A DNA stretch of 35,803 nucleotides from a virus. Below are positions 11,519 to 30,871 of the stretch, piece by piece (positions within the stretch are counted from its first letter, which is position 1; every line of letters starts with the position of its first letter). The DNA lies in the IMG/VR virus record IMGVR_UViG_3300021963_000359, positions 1 to 35,803 of that record, one strand, 5' to 3'. Made by a program: the position numbers and the translations under genes. Below the pieces are notes generated by a model. The model was given only the letters and a program-made list of their open reading frames with translations. It made no database searches and was not told where the DNA came from.

Positions 11519-12532
11519 GTGGTTCAACTGATATCAGTTAAAGGTCCCCACGCAAGACAACCTCATAGCCCAATCCGTGTACAATGGAACATGGGCAATC
11601 AATGCAACTTTACATGTGAATATTGTCCTCCCGTTTTACATGACGGGACAAAACCATGGTTGCCTTTAGAATCATATATAACTGCGGTTGACCGTATATG
11701 CAGTCATTACGCTGATATAGGTAAAAGTGTACACTTTGAACTTATTGGTGGCGAAGTAACAGTCATGGCTGGCTTCGAAGATATTATACGCAAAATTAAT
11801 GAATATGGGTGTAGTAGTGTAGCATTTACTAATGCTAGCCGTACAATTAATTGGTGGAGCAAAGCAAAACATTATCTCAATGGTGTAGTTATAACATGGC
11901 ATCCACAGAGCATGGATAAACAGCATTTAATTGATGTTATTAACGAAATCAAAGATTATGTCAACATAGATATTAATATTGCTGGCATTGGAGGCAGAGT
12001 TGATGAGCTTGGTAACACAGTTGAGGAATTACGTGAACTGTTTAAAGACTGCCAAAAAAATAACTATAATAATGTAAGTATCTGCGTAAAGACTATGTAT
12101 AAAAAGTTACTTGGTCGCGATAGTAAACAAGAAACATATTGGCCTTATACTGACTACGAACTAGAAATTATTAAGAGACCAGGCATTAAACCTATACCAA
12201 TGCCAATGCCAAATCCAGATCAACCTGTGTTTGAGCCAGACCCAAGAGATTGGATGACAGAATTTTTATATGATAACGGCGAAGCAAAATATGTACAAAG
12301 CCATCAAATTATAAATGAGGGCTTGAATAAGTTTAAAGGTATGAGTTGTTATTTAGGATTCGAAAGTCTTACTATTGATGCAAGCGGCGACATCTATAGT
12401 AGTTGGTGCGGTGCCAAACATTTTGGTAATATAGCTAAATTAGAAAGCTGGGAGTTACCAAAGAGCTTAACAGTATGTCCTTATGACTTTTGTAATAATA
12501 TATCAGATATCGCTATTAGTAAGATTGGCTAA
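11519..12532 (+). CDS. Radical SAM protein with SPASM-like C-terminal cysteines
   Basis: A GTG-started protein of 337 residues. Cys29, Cys33 and Cys36 (CNFTCEYC) form the CxxxCxxC motif that binds the [4Fe-4S] cluster used to cleave S-adenosylmethionine. The motif IGGEVT at about residues 76-81 corresponds to the GGE SAM-binding motif. The C-terminal region has further Cys (MSCYLGF, SSWCGAK, TVCPYDFCNN) in a SPASM/twitch-like spacing that probably binds an auxiliary cluster, typical of enzymes that modify peptides or proteins. It is adjacent to the PAAR gene and ends 30 bases inside a convergent gene. Substrate unknown; modification of a phage or host protein is a plausible inference. Confidence 0.85.
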   Translation: MVQLISVKGPHARQPHSPIRVQWNMGNQCNFTCEYCPPVLHDGTKPWLPLESYITAVDRICSHYADIGKSVHFELIGGEVTVMAGFEDIIRKINEYGCSSVAFTNASRTINWWSKAKHYLNGVVITWHPQSMDKQHLIDVINEIKDYVNIDINIAGIGGRVDELGNTVEELRELFKDCQKNNYNNVSICVKTMYKKLLGRDSKQETYWPYTDYELEIIKRPGIKPIPMPMPNPDQPVFEPDPRDWMTEFLYDNGEAKYVQSHQIINEGLNKFKGMSCYLGFESLTIDASGDIYSSWCGAKHFGNIAKLESWELPKSLTVCPYDFCNNISDIAISKIG

Positions 12533-24078: not shown

Positions 24079-25425
24079 ATGTCGGTAAATAGTAGTATGA
24101 GCGAAATCCATACTAAACATTATAAACACTGGAACGAATTACCTATAAACAAAGATACTGCATGTCAGTTCAAATGGACATGGAGTACTTTGTTTTTAAA
24201 TTTTGGCACTACTAGTAGCTGCCATCGCTGTAAACATTGGCCTGTAACAGTTGATACAATCGAGGATTTCCATAACGTCCCTGGTAAACTGCAAGATCGA
24301 GAAAAGATGTTGCAAGGCCAGTGGCCTGGCAATGGTTGCGAATATTGTAAAGTAGTAGAAGACGTAGGTGGTATAAGTGAGCGCAAGGCTTACATCAAAG
24401 ACTTACCTATGCTGCCTCCAGAAATGCAGTTTGAGCCTAAATCTACATCTGTAACACCTAGACTGTTAGAAGTCTATTTTAGTAATCTGTGTAATCAAGC
24501 CTGCACCTATTGCAGTGCTAAGTTTAGCAGTGTTATTCAAGCAGAAAACGAACGCCACGGTGAAATTCTAAAAGATGATTTGGAAGTATTTAAATGGCCT
24601 AATAATCCAGACTACGAAATCATGCGTGAGAAGTTTTGGAACTGGATGGATAAGTACGGTAAGGAATTATACAAATTCCAGATACTTGGCGGCGAGCCTC
24701 TATACCAACCTGAGTTTGATCGTTGCATTGAATGGTTCGATAAAAATCCATGCCCTAATTTAGAGTGGCACATCTTTAGTAATCTAAAACATAAAACTGA
24801 ACGATTAGAAAAACAGCTAGATCAAATCGAACGACTTATTGCTGACAAGAAGTTAAAGAGCTTCCAAGTAGTTGCTAGTATGGATTGCTGGGGCGATGAA
24901 GCTGAATATGCACGTTACGGCATGGACTTAGAGCAATGGGAAAGAAACTTCCTTCTATTACACAACAAGCGTTGGGTCAAGCTACAGGTTCATAGTACTA
25001 TTACTTCCTTAACTACACCCACTATGTGGAAGCTATACGATAATATTATTAAGTGGGAAGACAATCAAATTATGCCTTGGGGTAAGCCTAAACCAATCTT
25101 TTATAGTTGGAACACTATTCAAGATCCCAAATGGATGAATCCTAGTATTTTTGGCGACTATTGTGTACCCGAGATTGATCAACTTTTAAGAACTTTAGAA
25201 AACCGAGATAAAACATTTAATAGAGATATTTCTTATTTAGAAGGAATACGAACTCAATTAGTAACTGCAAAACCAAACAAGTACGAAATGTATCGTTTTA
25301 GGTCTCACTTAGATGAATTAGATAAACGACGTAAGTTGGATTGGAAAGCCATATACCCAAGATTAGCGGAATATATTAATCTTCAGTTACACGATTACGT
25401 TTTTGAGAGTAAGAAAGGGCAGTGA
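24079..25425 (+). CDS. Twitch-domain radical SAM protein
   Basis: At 448 residues this matches the layout of the phage-associated twitch-domain radical SAM family. Four Cys in the N-terminal region, C48-x-x-C51 and C87-x-x-C90, form a probable auxiliary Fe-S cluster placed before the core. C138, C142 and C145 (CNQACTYC) bind the SAM-cleaving [4Fe-4S] cluster. FQILGGEPL supplies the GGE motif. The C-terminal third is charged and helical. Such proteins are common in marine T4-like phages, yet no substrate is known. It is followed by a strong hairpin and the promoter of the ligase operon that also encodes ferredoxin, a possible electron donor. Confidence 0.87.
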   Translation: MSVNSSMSEIHTKHYKHWNELPINKDTACQFKWTWSTLFLNFGTTSSCHRCKHWPVTVDTIEDFHNVPGKLQDREKMLQGQWPGNGCEYCKVVEDVGGISERKAYIKDLPMLPPEMQFEPKSTSVTPRLLEVYFSNLCNQACTYCSAKFSSVIQAENERHGEILKDDLEVFKWPNNPDYEIMREKFWNWMDKYGKELYKFQILGGEPLYQPEFDRCIEWFDKNPCPNLEWHIFSNLKHKTERLEKQLDQIERLIADKKLKSFQVVASMDCWGDEAEYARYGMDLEQWERNFLLLHNKRWVKLQVHSTITSLTTPTMWKLYDNIIKWEDNQIMPWGKPKPIFYSWNTIQDPKWMNPSIFGDYCVPEIDQLLRTLENRDKTFNRDISYLEGIRTQLVTAKPNKYEMYRFRSHLDELDKRRKLDWKAIYPRLAEYINLQLHDYVFESKKGQ

Positions 25426-25440
25426 TGCCCAATTCTTACT
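25408..25440 (+). terminator. Long hairpin overlapping the radical SAM stop codon
   Basis: AGTAAGAA (25408-25415) pairs with TTCTTACT (25433-25440), and inside it GGGC (25417-25420) pairs with GCCC (25427-25430). The hairpin spans the TGA stop at 25423-25425 and ends on the first base of the next -35 box. It lacks a T tract, so it may be an mRNA 3' stabiliser rather than a true intrinsic terminator. Confidence 0.5.
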
Positions 25441-25468
25441 TGACATCTTTAAATTCATTTGCTATAAT
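25440..25468 (+). promoter_or_regulatory. Sigma70-type promoter of the ligase operon
   Basis: TTGACA (25440-25445) and TATAAT (25463-25468) are 17 bases apart, matching consensus at every position. The transcript should start near 25475, leaving a short leader that contains AAGGTGG before the ATG at 25499. Confidence 0.9.
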
Positions 25469-25498: not shown

Positions 25499-26800
25499 AT
25501 GACCAATCCCTGGCAAATTATTAAAGATTTGGAAACACATAATCTGCGTACCAACAAGGAGCAGATTATTGATGCTAATCGAGATAATGTAGTATTTTTA
25601 GAAGGTTGCCGATTGGCATTAGACCCAATGATTACATTTGGTCTTAAACAAATTCCGGAGAAAACAAATGAAGATGGTCCTGGGTTGGATTGGGATAGTT
25701 TTACTCTCGCTCTTACTGGTTTCGTTACTCGCAACGTCACCGGCAATACAGCTCGCGATATGGTAACAACAATGATGAACTCTGCTACACAAGAGCAGTG
25801 GAATCATTGGTATCGTCGTATCCTTATCAAGGATCTACGCTGTGGCGTAAGTGAAAAGACTATTAACAAAGTAGTTAAGGGTGCTATCCCTATTTTTGAA
25901 TGTCAGTTAAGTCATGACAGTGCTAACCATGAAAGCAAAGTATGCGGCAAGAAAATGATCGAAGTAAAACTGGATGGTGTGCGAGTCTTGACCGTAGTAT
26001 ATCCAGATGGGCGAGTGGACCAGTTCAGTCGCAATGGCAAGGAGTTGTTAAACTTTGGACACATCAAAGAGCAGTTCGCAACAGTAGCGAACAAGTTGAG
26101 CTCACCGACTGTTTTCGACGGGGAGATTATGTCCAGCAGTTTCCAGGACCTGATGAAACAGGTTCACCGCAAGGAAAATGTAACAGCCGGTGATGCTGTG
26201 TTGCACTTGTTTGACATCATCCCACTTGATAAGTTTCAAGAGGGTAAGTTTGCAGTTAAGCAAAGTGGCCGTACAGCATGGCTCAAGCAATGGTACGAAG
26301 AAAACATGACCAAGTTGCCTAACGTAACTGTACTTGATCATGCAGTAGTTGACCTTGATACTGACTATGGACAGAAGTTGTTTTCTATGTATAACAAGAG
26401 TGCAGTAGAAAATGGTTACGAAGGTATCATGATTAAGGACTTGAATGCAGCCTATGAGTGCAAGCGTAGTACAGCATGGCTCAAGCTCAAGCCCTTCATT
26501 GAAGTTTCATTGGAGGTAATTGAAATTGAAGAAGGCACTGGAAGAAACGTTGGAAGACTTGGTGCATTTGTATGCTCCGGCGACGACGACGGAAAACGTA
26601 TTAAAGTTAACGTTGGGTCTGGCTTTAGTGATTCTAATAGAGATAGCTTTTGGGCTAGCCATGTTGAGAATGATAATATTGTAGGACAAATTGTTGAAGT
26701 CCGAGCAGATGCTGTTACACAAAATCAAGACGGCTCATATAGTTTGCGCTTTCCTCGCTTCCTACGTTTCCGTGGCTTTGAGGCTGGAGAGAAACTGTAA
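25499..26800 (+). CDS. lig: ATP-dependent DNA ligase, T4 gp30-like
   Basis: The enzyme seals nicks in phage DNA. The 433-residue protein has an N-terminal helical domain and then the nucleotidyltransferase core with K157-L-D-G160 (motif I, the adenylated Lys), [10 protein letters not shown] (Ia), DGEIMSSSF (III), YEGIMIKDL (IV) and AWLKLKPF (V), followed by an OB-fold domain ending [11 protein letters not shown]. The motif spacing fits T4 ligase, slightly shorter overall (T4: 487 residues). It has its own sigma70-type promoter, consistent with early expression, and its stop overlaps the ferredoxin start. Confidence 0.96.
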
Positions 26801-27126
26801 TGACATATGTTGTAACAGAGGCTTGTATTAAATGCAAGTACACTGATTGTGTTAGTGTATGTCCTGTTGATTGTTTTTACGAAGGTGAAAACATGCTGGT
26901 CATTGACCCGGACAGTTGTATCGATTGTGCGCTATGCCAACCTGAATGTCCTGTTGATGCTATATACTCTGATCATGACATTCCAGGAGATCAGAGATTT
27001 ATGATTGAACTCAACAGTGATTTAAGCAGAGCGTGGAAAGATCGTAATATAACAACGAAAAAAGATCCTCTACCAGATGCAGAACATTGGGCTAAGATCA
27101 CAAACAAAAAAGATTATATGAGGTAA
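26800..27126 (+). CDS. fdxA: 7Fe-type ferredoxin (FdxA-like)
   Basis: This 108-residue protein has two Fe-S binding motifs. The first, [17 protein letters not shown], has the C-x7-C-x3-CP layout of a [3Fe-4S] site with an extra Cys, and the second, [14 protein letters not shown], is a classical CxxCxxCxxxCP [4Fe-4S] site. The length and the C-terminal extension match Azotobacter ferredoxin I/FdxA proteins. It transfers electrons at low potential. The start overlaps the ligase stop (TAATG). Likely partners are the two radical SAM enzymes or host redox enzymes; that link is inference. Confidence 0.9.
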
Positions 27127-27129
27127 TAT

Positions 27130-27645
27130 ATGTTAGATGTAGTTGATGCAAAAGATTCCGTACTTAACAGCGTAGCAAACGTTGATCCTTTTAGTACAGA
27201 TATTGTATGGAAAGATCGCGAAAGCGAAATGTTTGAACTTATGGAACGTCGATTTGGACTCGGCCTTGCCGCGCCACAAATTGGTGATCCTTATCGAATG
27301 TTTGTTATGAAACACAGTCAACATGGTCTTATTGGTGTTTATAACCCTGCTATTGTAGAAACTATCGGATCAGTTTCTATGGAAGAAGGCTGTCTTACGT
27401 TTCCTTTACTTTACATGGTTATGACGCGGCCCGAAACAATTAAGGTTCGTTACACTAAAACTGATGGTGTAACTGTAGTAGAAGAAACACTAAGCGGCAT
27501 TGATGCACGTTGTTTCTTGCATGAATACGATCATCTACAAGGTGTACTGTTTGTTAACCTAGTCAGCGATTTAAAACTTAAGATGGCTATAAATAAACGT
27601 AATAAGCGTTACGACAAGTTATCGCGAGCATTAGCTAAACGATGA
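27130..27645 (+). CDS. def: Peptide deformylase
   Basis: Deformylase removes the formyl group from nascent proteins. All three signature motifs are present: GLGLAAPQIG (residues 43-52), EEGCLTFP with metal ligand Cys88, and HEYDHLQG with His131, Glu132 and His135. At 171 residues it is normal length, unlike the very short cyanophage forms. It follows ferredoxin by 3 bases with an AGG-type ribosome binding site. Phage deformylases are thought to support high translation load late in infection. Confidence 0.94.
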   Translation: MLDVVDAKDSVLNSVANVDPFSTDIVWKDRESEMFELMERRFGLGLAAPQIGDPYRMFVMKHSQHGLIGVYNPAIVETIGSVSMEEGCLTFPLLYMVMTRPETIKVRYTKTDGVTVVEETLSGIDARCFLHEYDHLQGVLFVNLVSDLKLKMAINKRNKRYDKLSRALAKR

Positions 27646-27652
27646 GATAAGG

Positions 27653-28504
27653 ATGGACTATCCGTTCTATGTTAATAACTTTGACCGTGTTCAAGATCAT
27701 GCTGTAAAATATCCTCTGGTAACAAAGATATTTGAGCATCCGGTTTCATTCTGGTACGGTCAAAGAAACGGCAAACCAGTAAAACATTTAGAAAAGAGCT
27801 TGGCAAGATTGTTCCGTAGAACACTGCCGGCTCTTCCTGTGTTTGTACTGTACAACTTACCTAATCGCGACATGGGGCACTATAGCAAAGGTGGTGCCGG
27901 CAGTGCTGCCAGCTACTTAGAGTTCATTGAAAGTTTTGCGTTAGGTGTTGGTGAACTAGCACCTATTGTTATATTTGAACCTGATGCACTGCCGCATAGT
28001 ACGCAAATGGAATCAAGTGATGCACATTGGCGTAAGAATCTAATGCGCGAAGCATTAACCATTATTACATCTAAGACTAACGCAATAGTGTATGTAGACA
28101 TCGGCCATAGCAATTGGCTCAGTCCAGAAGAAGCAGGCAAACTACTTAACAGCGTATGTGTACAGGGTGTAAGGGGCTTTAGCGTCAATGTAAGTAACTT
28201 CCGTACTACAGCAGAGTCTGTTAGTTGGGCAGAACGTGTAGGCGAGTACACTCAGTACAATCACTACGTAGTCGATACTAGTCGCAATGGTAATGGACCA
28301 TATGGCAATGAATGGTGTAATCCACCTGGACGAGCAATTGGACAAGCACCCACAACTAACACTGGGGAACCATTATGCGATGCATACCTATGGATTAAAA
28401 TTCCTGGTGAAAGTGACGGGACAAAAAATAACGGGCCAAGAGCTGGTCGCTTCTGGCCCGTTTATGCAGAACAGTTAGTTCTTAATACTAGTTGGATTAG
28501 CTAA
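27653..28504 (+). CDS. Glycoside hydrolase family 6 (cellulase/cellobiohydrolase) protein
   Basis: The 283-residue protein is a full GH6 catalytic domain: VFVLYNLPNRDMGHYSKGG with Asp73, IVIFEPDALPH with the acid catalyst Asp111, VYVDIGHSNWL, GFSVNVSNF, YVVDTSRNGNGP, EWCNPPGRAIG, TTNTGEPLCDAYLWIK and PGESDG with Asp255. GH6 enzymes invert and cleave beta-1,4-glucan. There is no signal peptide, linker or carbohydrate-binding module, so it must reach its substrate in the virion or after lysis, unless it acts on an intracellular or capsule glucan. It follows the deformylase gene by 7 bases and its 3' end overlaps a convergent gene by 8 bases. Family assignment is firm; the role is unusual for a phage. 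Confidence 0.93.
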   Translation: MDYPFYVNNFDRVQDHAVKYPLVTKIFEHPVSFWYGQRNGKPVKHLEKSLARLFRRTLPALPVFVLYNLPNRDMGHYSKGGAGSAASYLEFIESFALGVGELAPIVIFEPDALPHSTQMESSDAHWRKNLMREALTIITSKTNAIVYVDIGHSNWLSPEEAGKLLNSVCVQGVRGFSVNVSNFRTTAESVSWAERVGEYTQYNHYVVDTSRNGNGPYGNEWCNPPGRAIGQAPTTNTGEPLCDAYLWIKIPGESDGTKNNGPRAGRFWPVYAEQLVLNTSWIS

Positions 28505-28841
28505 CACCGCTTGGATCGGTATTGTCTTGTACGTTTGGAGTAACAGATACTTCATCGCCAGGATTGTTTAATTCAGCTTCTAAGTAATGCTTTGCTGTGC
28601 TGATATAGTCACCAGCACGAACAATTTTAGATGTCCACCACTGTGGAAGATCACCGTTCGGTACTTCTTTTAGCATCTTGTGCAGTTCAACAGCATACTT
28701 ACCAATCTTATAAAGCTCTTGACGTAGCATGTCTGGTTCGTCATCTACATGACCAACCACAGTCTTTACAACTTCATCACCTGTTTCAGGTTCTTCTTTT
28801 AAGATACCTGCTAGTTGTTGTAGTCTTGTTAAATCGTTCAT
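28497..28841 (-). CDS. Small acidic virion-type protein with LAG motif N-terminus
   Basis: This 114-residue acidic protein starts MNDLTRLQQLAGILKEEPETG. The LTRLQQLAG core resembles LRKLAG segments in the upstream gene, and LKE followed by Glu fits the (L/I)xE cleavage pattern of the T4-type prohead protease. A helical middle (LRQELYKIGKYAVELHKML) and a polar C-terminus follow. Similar LxxLAG N-termini recur in small structural proteins of marine T4-like phages. It begins at the last base of the upstream gene, so it shares its late transcript. Head localisation is inference. Confidence 0.6.
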   Translation of the reverse strand: MNDLTRLQQLAGILKEEPETGDEVVKTVVGHVDDEPDMLRQELYKIGKYAVELHKMLKEVPNGDLPQWWTSKIVRAGDYISTAKHYLEAELNNPGDEVSVTPNVQDNTDPSGVS

Positions 28842-30430
28842 TATCTTAAACCTGCTAGTTTGCGTAGTTCTGCTAAGGCAGCTTCCATTGCATTGACTGA
28901 TGTTGACTCAACTGCTTCATTCTTAGAAACAGCATATGGATTAACTGCTTCGCGTGTATCAGCATCGCTGTTACCGTAGTCGTTGTCTAATTGATCAGCA
29001 ACAATGTCTAGGATCTTTTCAAAGTCATCGTCTGGATGTAAGTGATGATCGATTGCTACGTCATCGTACATTTGCTGAATAATTTTAGCAGCGGTAGCTT
29101 CTGCCGGAGTCTTTGGATTAGTCATTACATCGTAGCAATCTAGTTCACCGGAACCGCACTGTGCTAGTACTTGCTCAGCTTCCGTGCTAAAGCCTTCTTT
29201 AACATCATCATCTTCCGCATCTTCGGCTGCGTCTTTCATTGATTCTTCTTCGTCACCGTCCTTATCTAGGTCTAAGAAGTCTGGCTTTGATTCTTCAATG
29301 CCATAGTCATTGCGGATGCTGGCTAAGTCTACTGATTCACGCTTGAACTCATCTTCTTCGTCATCGATGTCCATATCTTTATAAGCTGGACTATCATCAC
29401 CTGCTTTAAGGGCCATGTTCTTAACAGCATTGACTGTTAAATCTAGAACAAACTGCTTTAGGTCTTTTGGAAGACTTGCAATACCAATATCCTTTTGGTT
29501 CATGATCTGCATAATATCACTTAGCTTTTGACCAACTGCTAGACTGTTATCATCTTTAGGATCTAGTCTTTCACTGAATTCAGACATCAGTGCTTCAGGA
29601 GAGCGTAGTAGTGCCTGGATAAACTGTTCTTGCTTTACTGTAGGATCGTTAACGTCTGCACCCTTAGGGAAACGATTAGCAATACTCATTTTAGCACTTG
29701 AATCGTTTGGTGGTAGGAACTTAGCTGTTTTAGCCTCTGCCCCACTAAATTCTACTGGTGCTGCTTCTTGCATTGGTAATCCTGCTAGCTTTCTTAGGAT
29801 GTTAATTTGTTCGCTCATATTTGCACTCGCTATCTTGTTATAAATTAAGTTAAAAACTTTTTCGTTATATGTACCAAATTGTTTAGTATAGATTTGTTTG
29901 GCTGCTTCAATGTCCGGAGCAGATTTTAACGCATCTCTAAACGCACTAGCACTAGCAACTTCATCGCCGATTTTAATAGTAGGCGCTAGTGTGATATAAC
30001 CACGCTCACTCATCGACTTTGGATTCGCTGATATTGTATTTATCTTCTGGTAGTACTTAGGCTTTGATTCACCCTTTACGGTCATATCTAAACCGGTTTT
30101 TGGATCCACATTATTGAATGGAAAACGGTCTAGATCCTTTTCGCCCACAGCAAAAATAATAACTGTTTCTGCTGGGTTAAAGTACTTTGCATAGTCCTCT
30201 TGGTGATAAGGACGAGTTACTGCTAGTACACGATTAGATGGGACACCGTGAGCGGCAGCAATTAACTGCTTTTCCTTAAAGTTAAAAGGGCTTTTGGGCG
30301 GTTCTACTTTATCGCTAGTACCAACAAAAACTTCAGCATCAGGGAATTGTGCTTGAAGCTGTTTAAATACTTCAGCATGGTGACTCAGCATGGGCTGGAA
30401 TCTACCTGGGTATATAACGACTTTGTTCAT
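28841..30430 (-). CDS. Nucleotidyltransferase-domain protein fused to an acidic structural-type region
   Basis: I start at MNKVVIYPGRFQPML (30430); the frame's earlier ATG lies inside the late promoter. The first 200 residues form a cytidylyltransferase/NMN adenylyltransferase-like domain: GRFQPMLSHHAEVF in place of GRFQPFHxGH, then FVGTSDK, and ASASAFRDAL near residue 165 as the C-terminal nucleotide-binding segment. The second His of HxGH is shifted, so activity is uncertain. The remaining 325 residues are acidic and helical (DDEEDEF, EEESMKDAAEDAEDDD), with LRKLAGL both at the junction (about residue 215) and at the very C-terminus. Late promoter and absence of a Shine-Dalgarno suggest a leaderless late mRNA. 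Structural plus enzymatic roles are possible. Confidence 0.75.
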   Translation of the reverse strand: MNKVVIYPGRFQPMLSHHAEVFKQLQAQFPDAEVFVGTSDKVEPPKSPFNFKEKQLIAAAHGVPSNRVLAVTRPYHQEDYAKYFNPAETVIIFAVGEKDLDRFPFNNVDPKTGLDMTVKGESKPKYYQKINTISANPKSMSERGYITLAPTIKIGDEVASASAFRDALKSAPDIEAAKQIYTKQFGTYNEKVFNLIYNKIASANMSEQINILRKLAGLPMQEAAPVEFSGAEAKTAKFLPPNDSSAKMSIANRFPKGADVNDPTVKQEQFIQALLRSPEALMSEFSERLDPKDDNSLAVGQKLSDIMQIMNQKDIGIASLPKDLKQFVLDLTVNAVKNMALKAGDDSPAYKDMDIDDEEDEFKRESVDLASIRNDYGIEESKPDFLDLDKDGDEEESMKDAAEDAEDDDVKEGFSTEAEQVLAQCGSGELDCYDVMTNPKTPAEATAAKIIQQMYDDVAIDHHLHPDDDFEKILDIVADQLDNDYGNSDADTREAVNPYAVSKNEAVESTSVNAMEAALAELRKLAGLR

Positions 30431-30435
30431 ACTAG

Positions 30436-30456
30436 TATTTATCATTGTGATAAATA
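30436..30456. promoter_or_regulatory. Back-to-back divergent late promoters
   Basis: GATAAATA on the minus strand (complement of 30436-30443) drives the nucleotidyltransferase-fusion gene, with only 5 bases to its ATG. GATAAATA on the plus strand (30449-30456) drives iscU. Only 5 bases separate the two elements. Confidence 0.75.
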
Positions 30457-30481: not shown

Positions 30482-30871
30482 ATGGCTTACTCAAATCAAG
30501 TCATTGACCACTACGAAAATCCACGAAATGTCGGTAGTTTTGACAAGGCGGATCCGTCAGTGGGAACCGGGATGGTTGGCGCACCAGCATGTGGTGACGT
30601 CATGAAACTTCAAATTAAGGTAGATGAAAATGGCATTATACAAGATGCCCGCTTTAAGACATATGGATGTGGTTCGGCAATCGCGAGTAGTTCATTGGTT
30701 ACCGAGTGGGTTAAGGGCAAAAGTATTGAAGAAGCTGGCCAACTTAAAAACTCTCAAATAGCAGAGGAACTTGCGCTACCGCCTGTAAAGATACACTGTA
30801 GTATTTTAGCCGAAGATGCAATTAAAGCGGCTATACATGATTATCAGTTAAAGTGCAGTTGCGCTAGTTAA
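30482..30871 (+). CDS. iscU: IscU/NifU-type iron-sulfur cluster scaffold
   Basis: The 129-residue protein assembles Fe-S clusters from cysteine-derived sulfur and passes them to apoproteins. The cluster ligands Cys37, Asp39 (ACGD), Cys63 (YGCGSA) and Cys106 (KIHCSIL) with His105 are present. L99-P-P-V-K103 is the exact motif that binds the HscA chaperone in proteobacterial IscU. The frame is open further upstream but the ATG at 30482 has an excellent Shine-Dalgarno, and earlier starts would contain the promoter. It has its own late promoter and is the only plus-strand gene in this block; its 3' end overlaps the convergent dehydrogenase gene by 8 bases. Confidence 0.95.
   Translation: MAYSNQVIDHYENPRNVGSFDKADPSVGTGMVGAPACGDVMKLQIKVDENGIIQDARFKTYGCGSAIASSSLVTEWVKGKSIEEAGQLKNSQIAEELALPPVKIHCSILAEDAIKAAIHDYQLKCSCAS

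Follow-up and report, generated by a model that had tools for sequence, protein, structure and literature searches.

The window analysed here, an IMG/VR viral contig taken at its full length of 35,803 bp, encodes a real and complete GH6 catalytic domain with an apparently intact active site. Within a clade of jumbo phages the gene belongs to the core set and is not a stray acquisition. The chances are about even that its product is an active, soluble GH6 endo-β-1,4-glucanase of a phage-owned lineage, which would be made in the cytosol, freed at lysis and directed at the surrounding β-1,4-glucan.

The GH6 catalytic domain and its conserved residues

The gene and the codons of three catalytic-site aspartates are located as follows:

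27653..28504, + strand: GH6 endo-β-1,4-glucanase-like protein, ATG start, 283 aa, the catalytic domain being the whole protein
27869..27871, + strand: codon of D73 (D79 in T. fusca Cel6A), conserved in 63/63 viral GH6 proteins
27983..27985, + strand: codon of D111 (D117, the general acid), conserved in 63/63 viral GH6 proteins
28415..28417, + strand: codon of D255 (D265, the proposed base), conserved in 63/63 viral GH6 proteins

A search of the contig itself placed GH6 at these coordinates, uninterrupted by any stop codon, and the open reading frame matched the Pfam model PF01341 with 177 bits (8e-52; profile positions 16-300 of 305; cut-off 27 bits). Matches in the PDB reached 3e-58, the best being Cel6 of M. 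tuberculosis (200 bits), a compost GH6 and T. fusca Cel6A, while the PHROGs and NCBIfam models gave no match. The AlphaFold model inferred from a 47-sequence alignment (pLDDT 89.3, pTM 0.90) has the distorted β/α barrel fold of GH6 and superimposes on the M. tuberculosis Cel6-cellobiose complex 1up0 over 276 residues with a Z-score of 33.6 and an rmsd of 2.1 Å. It replaced a first model from 21 sequences (pLDDT 77), which was dropped since the active-site loops were poor. The 50 best structure matches listed for the model are all GH6 structures or GH6-derived scaffolds, and a search of the viral structure library gave no GH6 match. The assignment to GH6 in the first-pass annotation is thus confirmed by profile, PDB and fold matches, and the modelling proposed there as a check for a broken active site revealed none, with the GH6 fold and the residues checked being intact.

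In exo-type GH6 cellobiohydrolases, the cleft is turned into a tunnel by long loops, and the catalytic domain has about 350-430 aa. The window protein, with its 283 aa, has neither the length nor the tunnel-closing loops of this type. The viral proteins range from 270 to 316 aa (63 sequences), and the best structural matches of the window protein are endo enzymes of 286-300 aa. Since the proteins are short and the model scores higher against bacterial endo-type structures (mostly Z 31-34) than against exo-type structures (about 26-28), the viral GH6 is taken to be of the endo type.

In GH6 enzymes, D117 of T. fusca Cel6A is the acid, D265 the proposed base, and D79 and Y73 are helpers. In the alignment, W41, Y73, R78, D79 and D117 of this enzyme correspond to W34, Y67, R72, D73 and D111 in the window protein, D156, H159, W162, S189 and N190 to D149, H152, W155, S181 and N182, and W231, K259, E263 and D265 to W221, K249, E253 and D255. 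These cleft residues are kept in 62-63 of the 63 viral proteins, except W231, which is kept in 58; the five proteins that lack it are members of a second viral group described below. The first-pass annotation had credited the protein with essentially every GH6 signature. This is correct for the three aspartates D73, D111 and D255, but not for the first motif, where the cysteine that follows RD is a methionine (RDM) in the window protein and is missing from every one of the 63 viral relatives.

Residue 79, which adjoins the catalytic center and corresponds to the loop position of Ser85 in T. fusca, is a lysine in 62/63 viral proteins. Cellular GH6 proteins vary at this position (A in 26, G in 8, S in 8 and K in 2 of 48, with E and Q also present), and the lysine is therefore no mark of a dead enzyme, an interpretation that we considered and rejected. 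Judging from the alignment, it may instead reflect a tuned or different specificity.

The features associated with secretion are lost. A hydrophobic N-terminus is found in none of the 63 viral proteins as compared to 50 of 52 cellular relatives. Of the first disulfide, Cys80 is present in 0/63 viral and 48/48 cellular proteins, and Cys125 in 0/63 and 47/48, respectively. Both cysteines of the second disulfide are present in 11/63 viral proteins versus 48/48 cellular ones. This bond is incomplete in the window protein, in which M74, Q118 and K258 occupy three of the four cysteine sites. The window protein thus has neither the signal peptide nor the two disulfides of the classical secreted bacterial GH6 enzymes. 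It also has no carbohydrate-binding module and no linker, the domain filling the whole protein, as had been noted from the sequence at first sight. The absence of the signal peptide and of the first disulfide from all 63 viral proteins suggests that the family is built for the cytosol and adapted to folding and resting there.

Distribution, phylogeny and carriers of the viral GH6 gene

A scan of IMG/VR with the window protein identified 37 loci with 59-93% identity, nearly all of full length. The search of viral metagenomes that had been recommended was extended with a profile-based scan, which found at least 83 viral GH6 relatives on IMG/VR contigs, 80 of which were kept. The surroundings are conserved: a member of the deformylase family adjoins GH6 or lies near it in 32/38 loci, and a convergent neighbor of 114 aa is located on the GH6-downstream side in 38/38. 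To avoid counting only loci that had been found by searching for GH6, IMG/VR was also searched with the neighboring 534-aa protein as an anchor. Among the best 80 of 411 anchor matches, 59 loci were orthologous, 12 of which run out after at most about 2.5 kb on the side of GH6, before GH6 is reached. GH6 is present in all 47 anchor loci with enough flank, taken from the best 80 of 411 matches to a profile built from GH6-bearing loci, several of the contigs being near-copies. It lies within 6 kb of the anchor in 45 of these, and farther out on the same contig in two (L291 and L295, which share contigs with L017 and L021). The best 80 of 411 matches also include 21 distant anchor homologs (about 36%, N-terminal part only), and GH6 is absent within the flank of these. 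The dN/dS values between pairs of viral GH6 genes are 0.04-0.11, indicating strong purifying selection.

These results bear on two points raised in the first-pass annotation. GH6 had been called unexpected in a T4-like aquatic phage; the carrier is indeed a T4-related tailed phage, but the gene is no isolated oddity, being present in 47/47 anchor loci. An assembly chimera or a lack of viral homologs had been named as grounds for doubt, and neither holds. The conserved synteny and the anchor test rule out a chimeric contig or bacterial DNA in a viral bin, and with more than 80 viral contigs from many samples and a clade of their own, the probability of an artifact is negligible.

In a maximum-likelihood phylogeny of 113 sequences, the 63 distinct viral GH6 proteins are placed on one side of a branch with 100/100 support and a long stem, apart from 48 cellular GH6 proteins. 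The viral clade is thus separate and, subject to the long-branch warning that the tree carries, probably old. In the same tree, gp72 of Streptomyces phage Gilgamesh and a protein from the fecal phage record MT836874 branch among the cellular GH6 proteins, which indicates that phage GH6 arose more than once. The latter record (L193, MT836874.1) is marked UNVERIFIED; its GH6 is placed near that of Caballeronia and represents either a separate acquisition or mislabelled bacterial DNA.

A second viral group (L108 and L111-L117) shows about 43% identity and has T4-type neighbors. In L108, GH6 is accompanied by gp32 and a UvsX/RecA-like gene, and in L114 by the gp25 baseplate gene, about 3 kb away, and by thymidylate synthase-like and asparagine synthase genes.

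The long stem that parts the viral from the cellular GH6 proteins, together with Lys79 as a viral hallmark beside the catalytic center, would be consistent with a GH6 scaffold that acts on another β-1,4-linked polymer, such as peptidoglycan or O-antigen, and serves as an auxiliary lysin. We consider such a change of substrate quite improbable, given that every cleft residue checked is retained and that the phages have canonical lysozymes. To our knowledge, no GH6 enzyme cuts peptidoglycan. The lysozymes are encoded separately from GH6: G001, the largest GH6 contig, has one of 150 aa and a lysozyme domain in a 900-aa protein, G005 has one of 162 aa, and G003 has a GH19 enzyme.

G001 (L012) is 339,794 bp long and has a direct repeat of 210 bp (98.6%) at both ends. 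With these matching ends and no large internal duplication, it resembles a complete circularly mapping genome. A contig of 216,820 bp from a second metagenome is colinear with it at more than 99.9%. Many window genes have homologs in G001, including that for RNR (78%). The terminase (TerL) of G001 is closest to those of Pseudomonas phage PA5oct (55.6%), Sinorhizobium phage Phosso and Agrobacterium phage Atu_ph07, and the window RNR to those of a Stenotrophomonas phage and of 350-kb jumbo phages of Gammaproteobacteria. By these gene relationships, the GH6 carriers belong to the T4-related jumbo phages. GH6 is not detectable in any cultured jumbo phage of a 50,697-record collection, and as far as could be found the clade has no cultured member. 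Most of the phages related by terminase and RNR have gammaproteobacterial hosts, and the IscU and ferredoxin DNA of the window shows about 70% identity to contigs that were deposited under the name “Acinetobacter phage MD-2021a” and themselves look bacterial. From these similarities our guess is that the host is proteobacterial, perhaps gammaproteobacterial. A plasmid search with a host-like G001 protein gave no match.

Another region of G001, at about 249-260 kb (L137:9449-19715, - strand; also in L208/L209 (G002) and L219-L221), contains secreted host-like genes between the tail sheath and tail fiber genes. It encodes a CsgG curli secretion channel (155.7 bits), two similar repeat proteins with signal peptides, one of them with curlin repeats, and also FecR, a CHASE2-adenylate cyclase and two cytochrome-c-like proteins. 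The region is present in two separately assembled metagenomes. In the marine phages HTVC008M and Melnitz, the curli genes comprise csgF/csgG only (PMC7029224, PMC9004378), and possible fiber subunits beside a phage csgG would be new. At least 31 IMG/VR contigs (L219-L249) encode a relative of the G001 CsgG, while none was found in the other GH6 phage records tested, most of which are fragments. Two further G001 products, a TonB-plug-domain protein and an FG-GAP-repeat protein (L135:17982-19637 and L139:2350-4029, both - strand), are unusual for a phage.

The GH6 transcription unit and the possible role of the enzyme

The gene neighborhood in the window contains the following features:

25417..25430, + strand: terminator-like hairpin directly before the promoter, a consensus match only
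25440..25468, + strand: sigma-70-type promoter TTGACA-17-TATAAT (12/12, extended -10 TG), heading the unit that ends in GH6
25499..26800, + strand: ATP-dependent DNA ligase, first gene of the GH6 unit
26800..27126, + strand: 7Fe-type ferredoxin (Fer4 + DUF3470), its ATG overlapping the ligase stop
27130..27645, + strand: peptide deformylase, 7 bp upstream of GH6
28497..28841, - strand: 114-aa protein with no assigned function, convergent with GH6 and overlapping it by 8 bp
28841..30445, - strand: 534-aa nucleotidyltransferase-like protein, anchor gene of the conservation test

GH6 is the last gene of a packed unit, in which the ligase and ferredoxin genes overlap and are followed by gaps of 3 and 7 bp. 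A promoter of the same type is located at the equivalent place in L002, L003, L005, L006 and L008, and most other GH6 loci have a sigma-70-type site one to four kb upstream of GH6. Early genes in T4-like phages are marked by host sigma-70-type promoters, while genes for lysis and release are usually late. By analogy, the GH6 unit would be expressed early from its sigma-70-type promoter. The T4-type late promoter TATAAATA is not enriched near GH6 (3 and 1 sites versus about 3.6 expected per strand), and a late-gene call is therefore impossible. The promoter map of G001 was considered as a divider between early and late genes and rejected as not clean, with sigma-70-type sites also in structural-gene stretches.

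In the window, near-perfect sigma-70-type promoters number five on the + strand (3185, 7077, 18861, 21901 and 25440) and none on the - strand, with about 1.1 per strand expected by chance, and transcription of the two strands may rely on different classes of promoter. A recurring LxxLAG(I/L) motif (RLQQLAGIL, ILRKLAGL, ELRKLAGL), perhaps a sorting or assembly tag, is common to the 114-aa and 534-aa proteins (28497-30445, - strand) and is also present at the C-terminus of the 534-aa protein. The ferredoxin (26800-27126) occurs in the same window as a NifU/IscU scaffold gene (30482-30871), and the two suggest a supply of iron-sulfur clusters for the radical SAM proteins (11519-12532 and 24079-25425).

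An early promoter would fit an enzyme that is made soon after infection and cuts β-1,4-glucan within the cell or on its inner face. The target could be cellulose as it leaves the synthase, or else a glucan that serves for storage or as an envelope precursor, and the effect could be to save UDP-glucose, remodel the surface or stop matrix production. This early role is less likely than release at lysis but a serious rival to it. It agrees with the position of GH6 at the end of a tight ligase/ferredoxin/deformylase operon with a 12/12 promoter, arranged in the same way in the nearest relatives and outside the structural-gene clusters, and with the loss of the signal peptide and first disulfide in 63/63 viral proteins. 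However, an intracellular pool of β-1,4-glucan is not established in the likely hosts, and promoter class alone does not set the timing, as such sites occur among the structural genes of G001. In its broader form, a cytosolic core GH6 owned by the phage and acting on intracellular or envelope glucan of the bacterium would be an intracellular cellulase in phage takeover, which we consider unlikely.

In a further reading, GH6 would sit on the tail or capsid and digest β-1,4-glucan at entry. The Gilgamesh GH6 has an extra N-terminal part and is encoded among the tail genes, two genes past a minor tail protein, and the GH6 of the second viral group lies about 3 kb from the gp25 baseplate gene in L114. 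But all 63 viral proteins (270-316 aa) are bare catalytic domains with no part for binding to a fiber or particle, and in the jumbo clade the gene is located with metabolic genes, on the opposite strand to its downstream neighbors and away from tail genes. As the window protein is neither fused to a tail part nor encoded in a tail cluster, a virion-borne depolymerase is improbable.

Release at lysis is the reading that we prefer. The predicted product is an inverting, open-cleft endo-β-1,4-glucanase, vertically inherited in jumbo T4-related phages, which would be synthesized in the infected cell's cytosol and fold there in the absence of the usual disulfides. The separate phage lysis system, a lysozyme-type endolysin, would burst the cell and release the stored enzyme, which could then cut the cellulose, or an exopolysaccharide related to it, that surrounds this cell and those nearby. 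The presumed benefit of cutting the matrix is that the progeny may leave aggregates and reach new hosts. The first-pass annotation had likewise proposed that the enzyme may degrade a β-1,4-glucan capsule or matrix of the host or help to release progeny, and its interpretation is supported in part. The counter-points are that the promoter of the GH6 unit appears to be of the early, host sigma-70 type, whereas release genes are usually late, that Lys79 may alter the specificity, and that the protein has no carbohydrate-binding module.

GH6 as standing phage equipment points to β-1,4-glucan as a barrier or target in every infection. The viral enzyme is a concrete candidate for work on bacterial cellulose and biofilm matrix, and a GH6 fold long kept in the absence of disulfides should be useful for enzyme work in reducing conditions.

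Comparison with known GH6 enzymes and phages

GH6 has already been reported in viral data, namely in Mariana Trench sediments and in phage Gilgamesh. Our search of the literature on GH6 in phages found one relevant report, which counts a GH6 gene on a viral scaffold from Mariana Trench sediments among the auxiliary genes for degrading polysaccharides (PMC8725595). The accessible part of that report does not describe a conserved lineage, core status or the loss of secretion features. A dedicated GH6 lineage that is adapted to the cytosol and has become fixed in a clade of jumbo phages appears to be undescribed in the searchable literature.

The gp72 protein of Streptomyces phage Gilgamesh is similar to the window protein in being a phage-encoded GH6 with no signal peptide and no Cys80 or Cys125. 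It differs in its length of 444 aa, its extra N-terminal part, its location in a tail gene cluster and its position within the cellular GH6 proteins rather than in the jumbo clade. In their terminase (55.6% to PA5oct), the GH6 carriers are nearest to jumbo phages of the PA5oct/Phosso/Atu_ph07/121Q type, to which their RNR is also close (about 58-61%), but GH6 was not detectable among the cultured jumbo phages of the 50,697-record collection.

The window protein resembles Cel6/CelA1 of M. tuberculosis (1up0, 1uoz) and Cel6A of T. fusca (1tml) in its fold, which matches from end to end (Z 33.6 and 31.8), in all catalytic and cleft residues checked and in its endo-type length. The identity to these GH6 endoglucanases of Actinomycetota is about 35-41%. 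Cellular GH6 enzymes are secreted and have a signal peptide and a pair of disulfides, whereas the signal and the first disulfide are missing from all 63 phage proteins, and usually the second disulfide as well. Cellulases in viral data are usually treated as stray auxiliary genes that would help the host to digest polymers; the GH6 described here is, in contrast, a standing phage gene that has been stripped of its secretion features.
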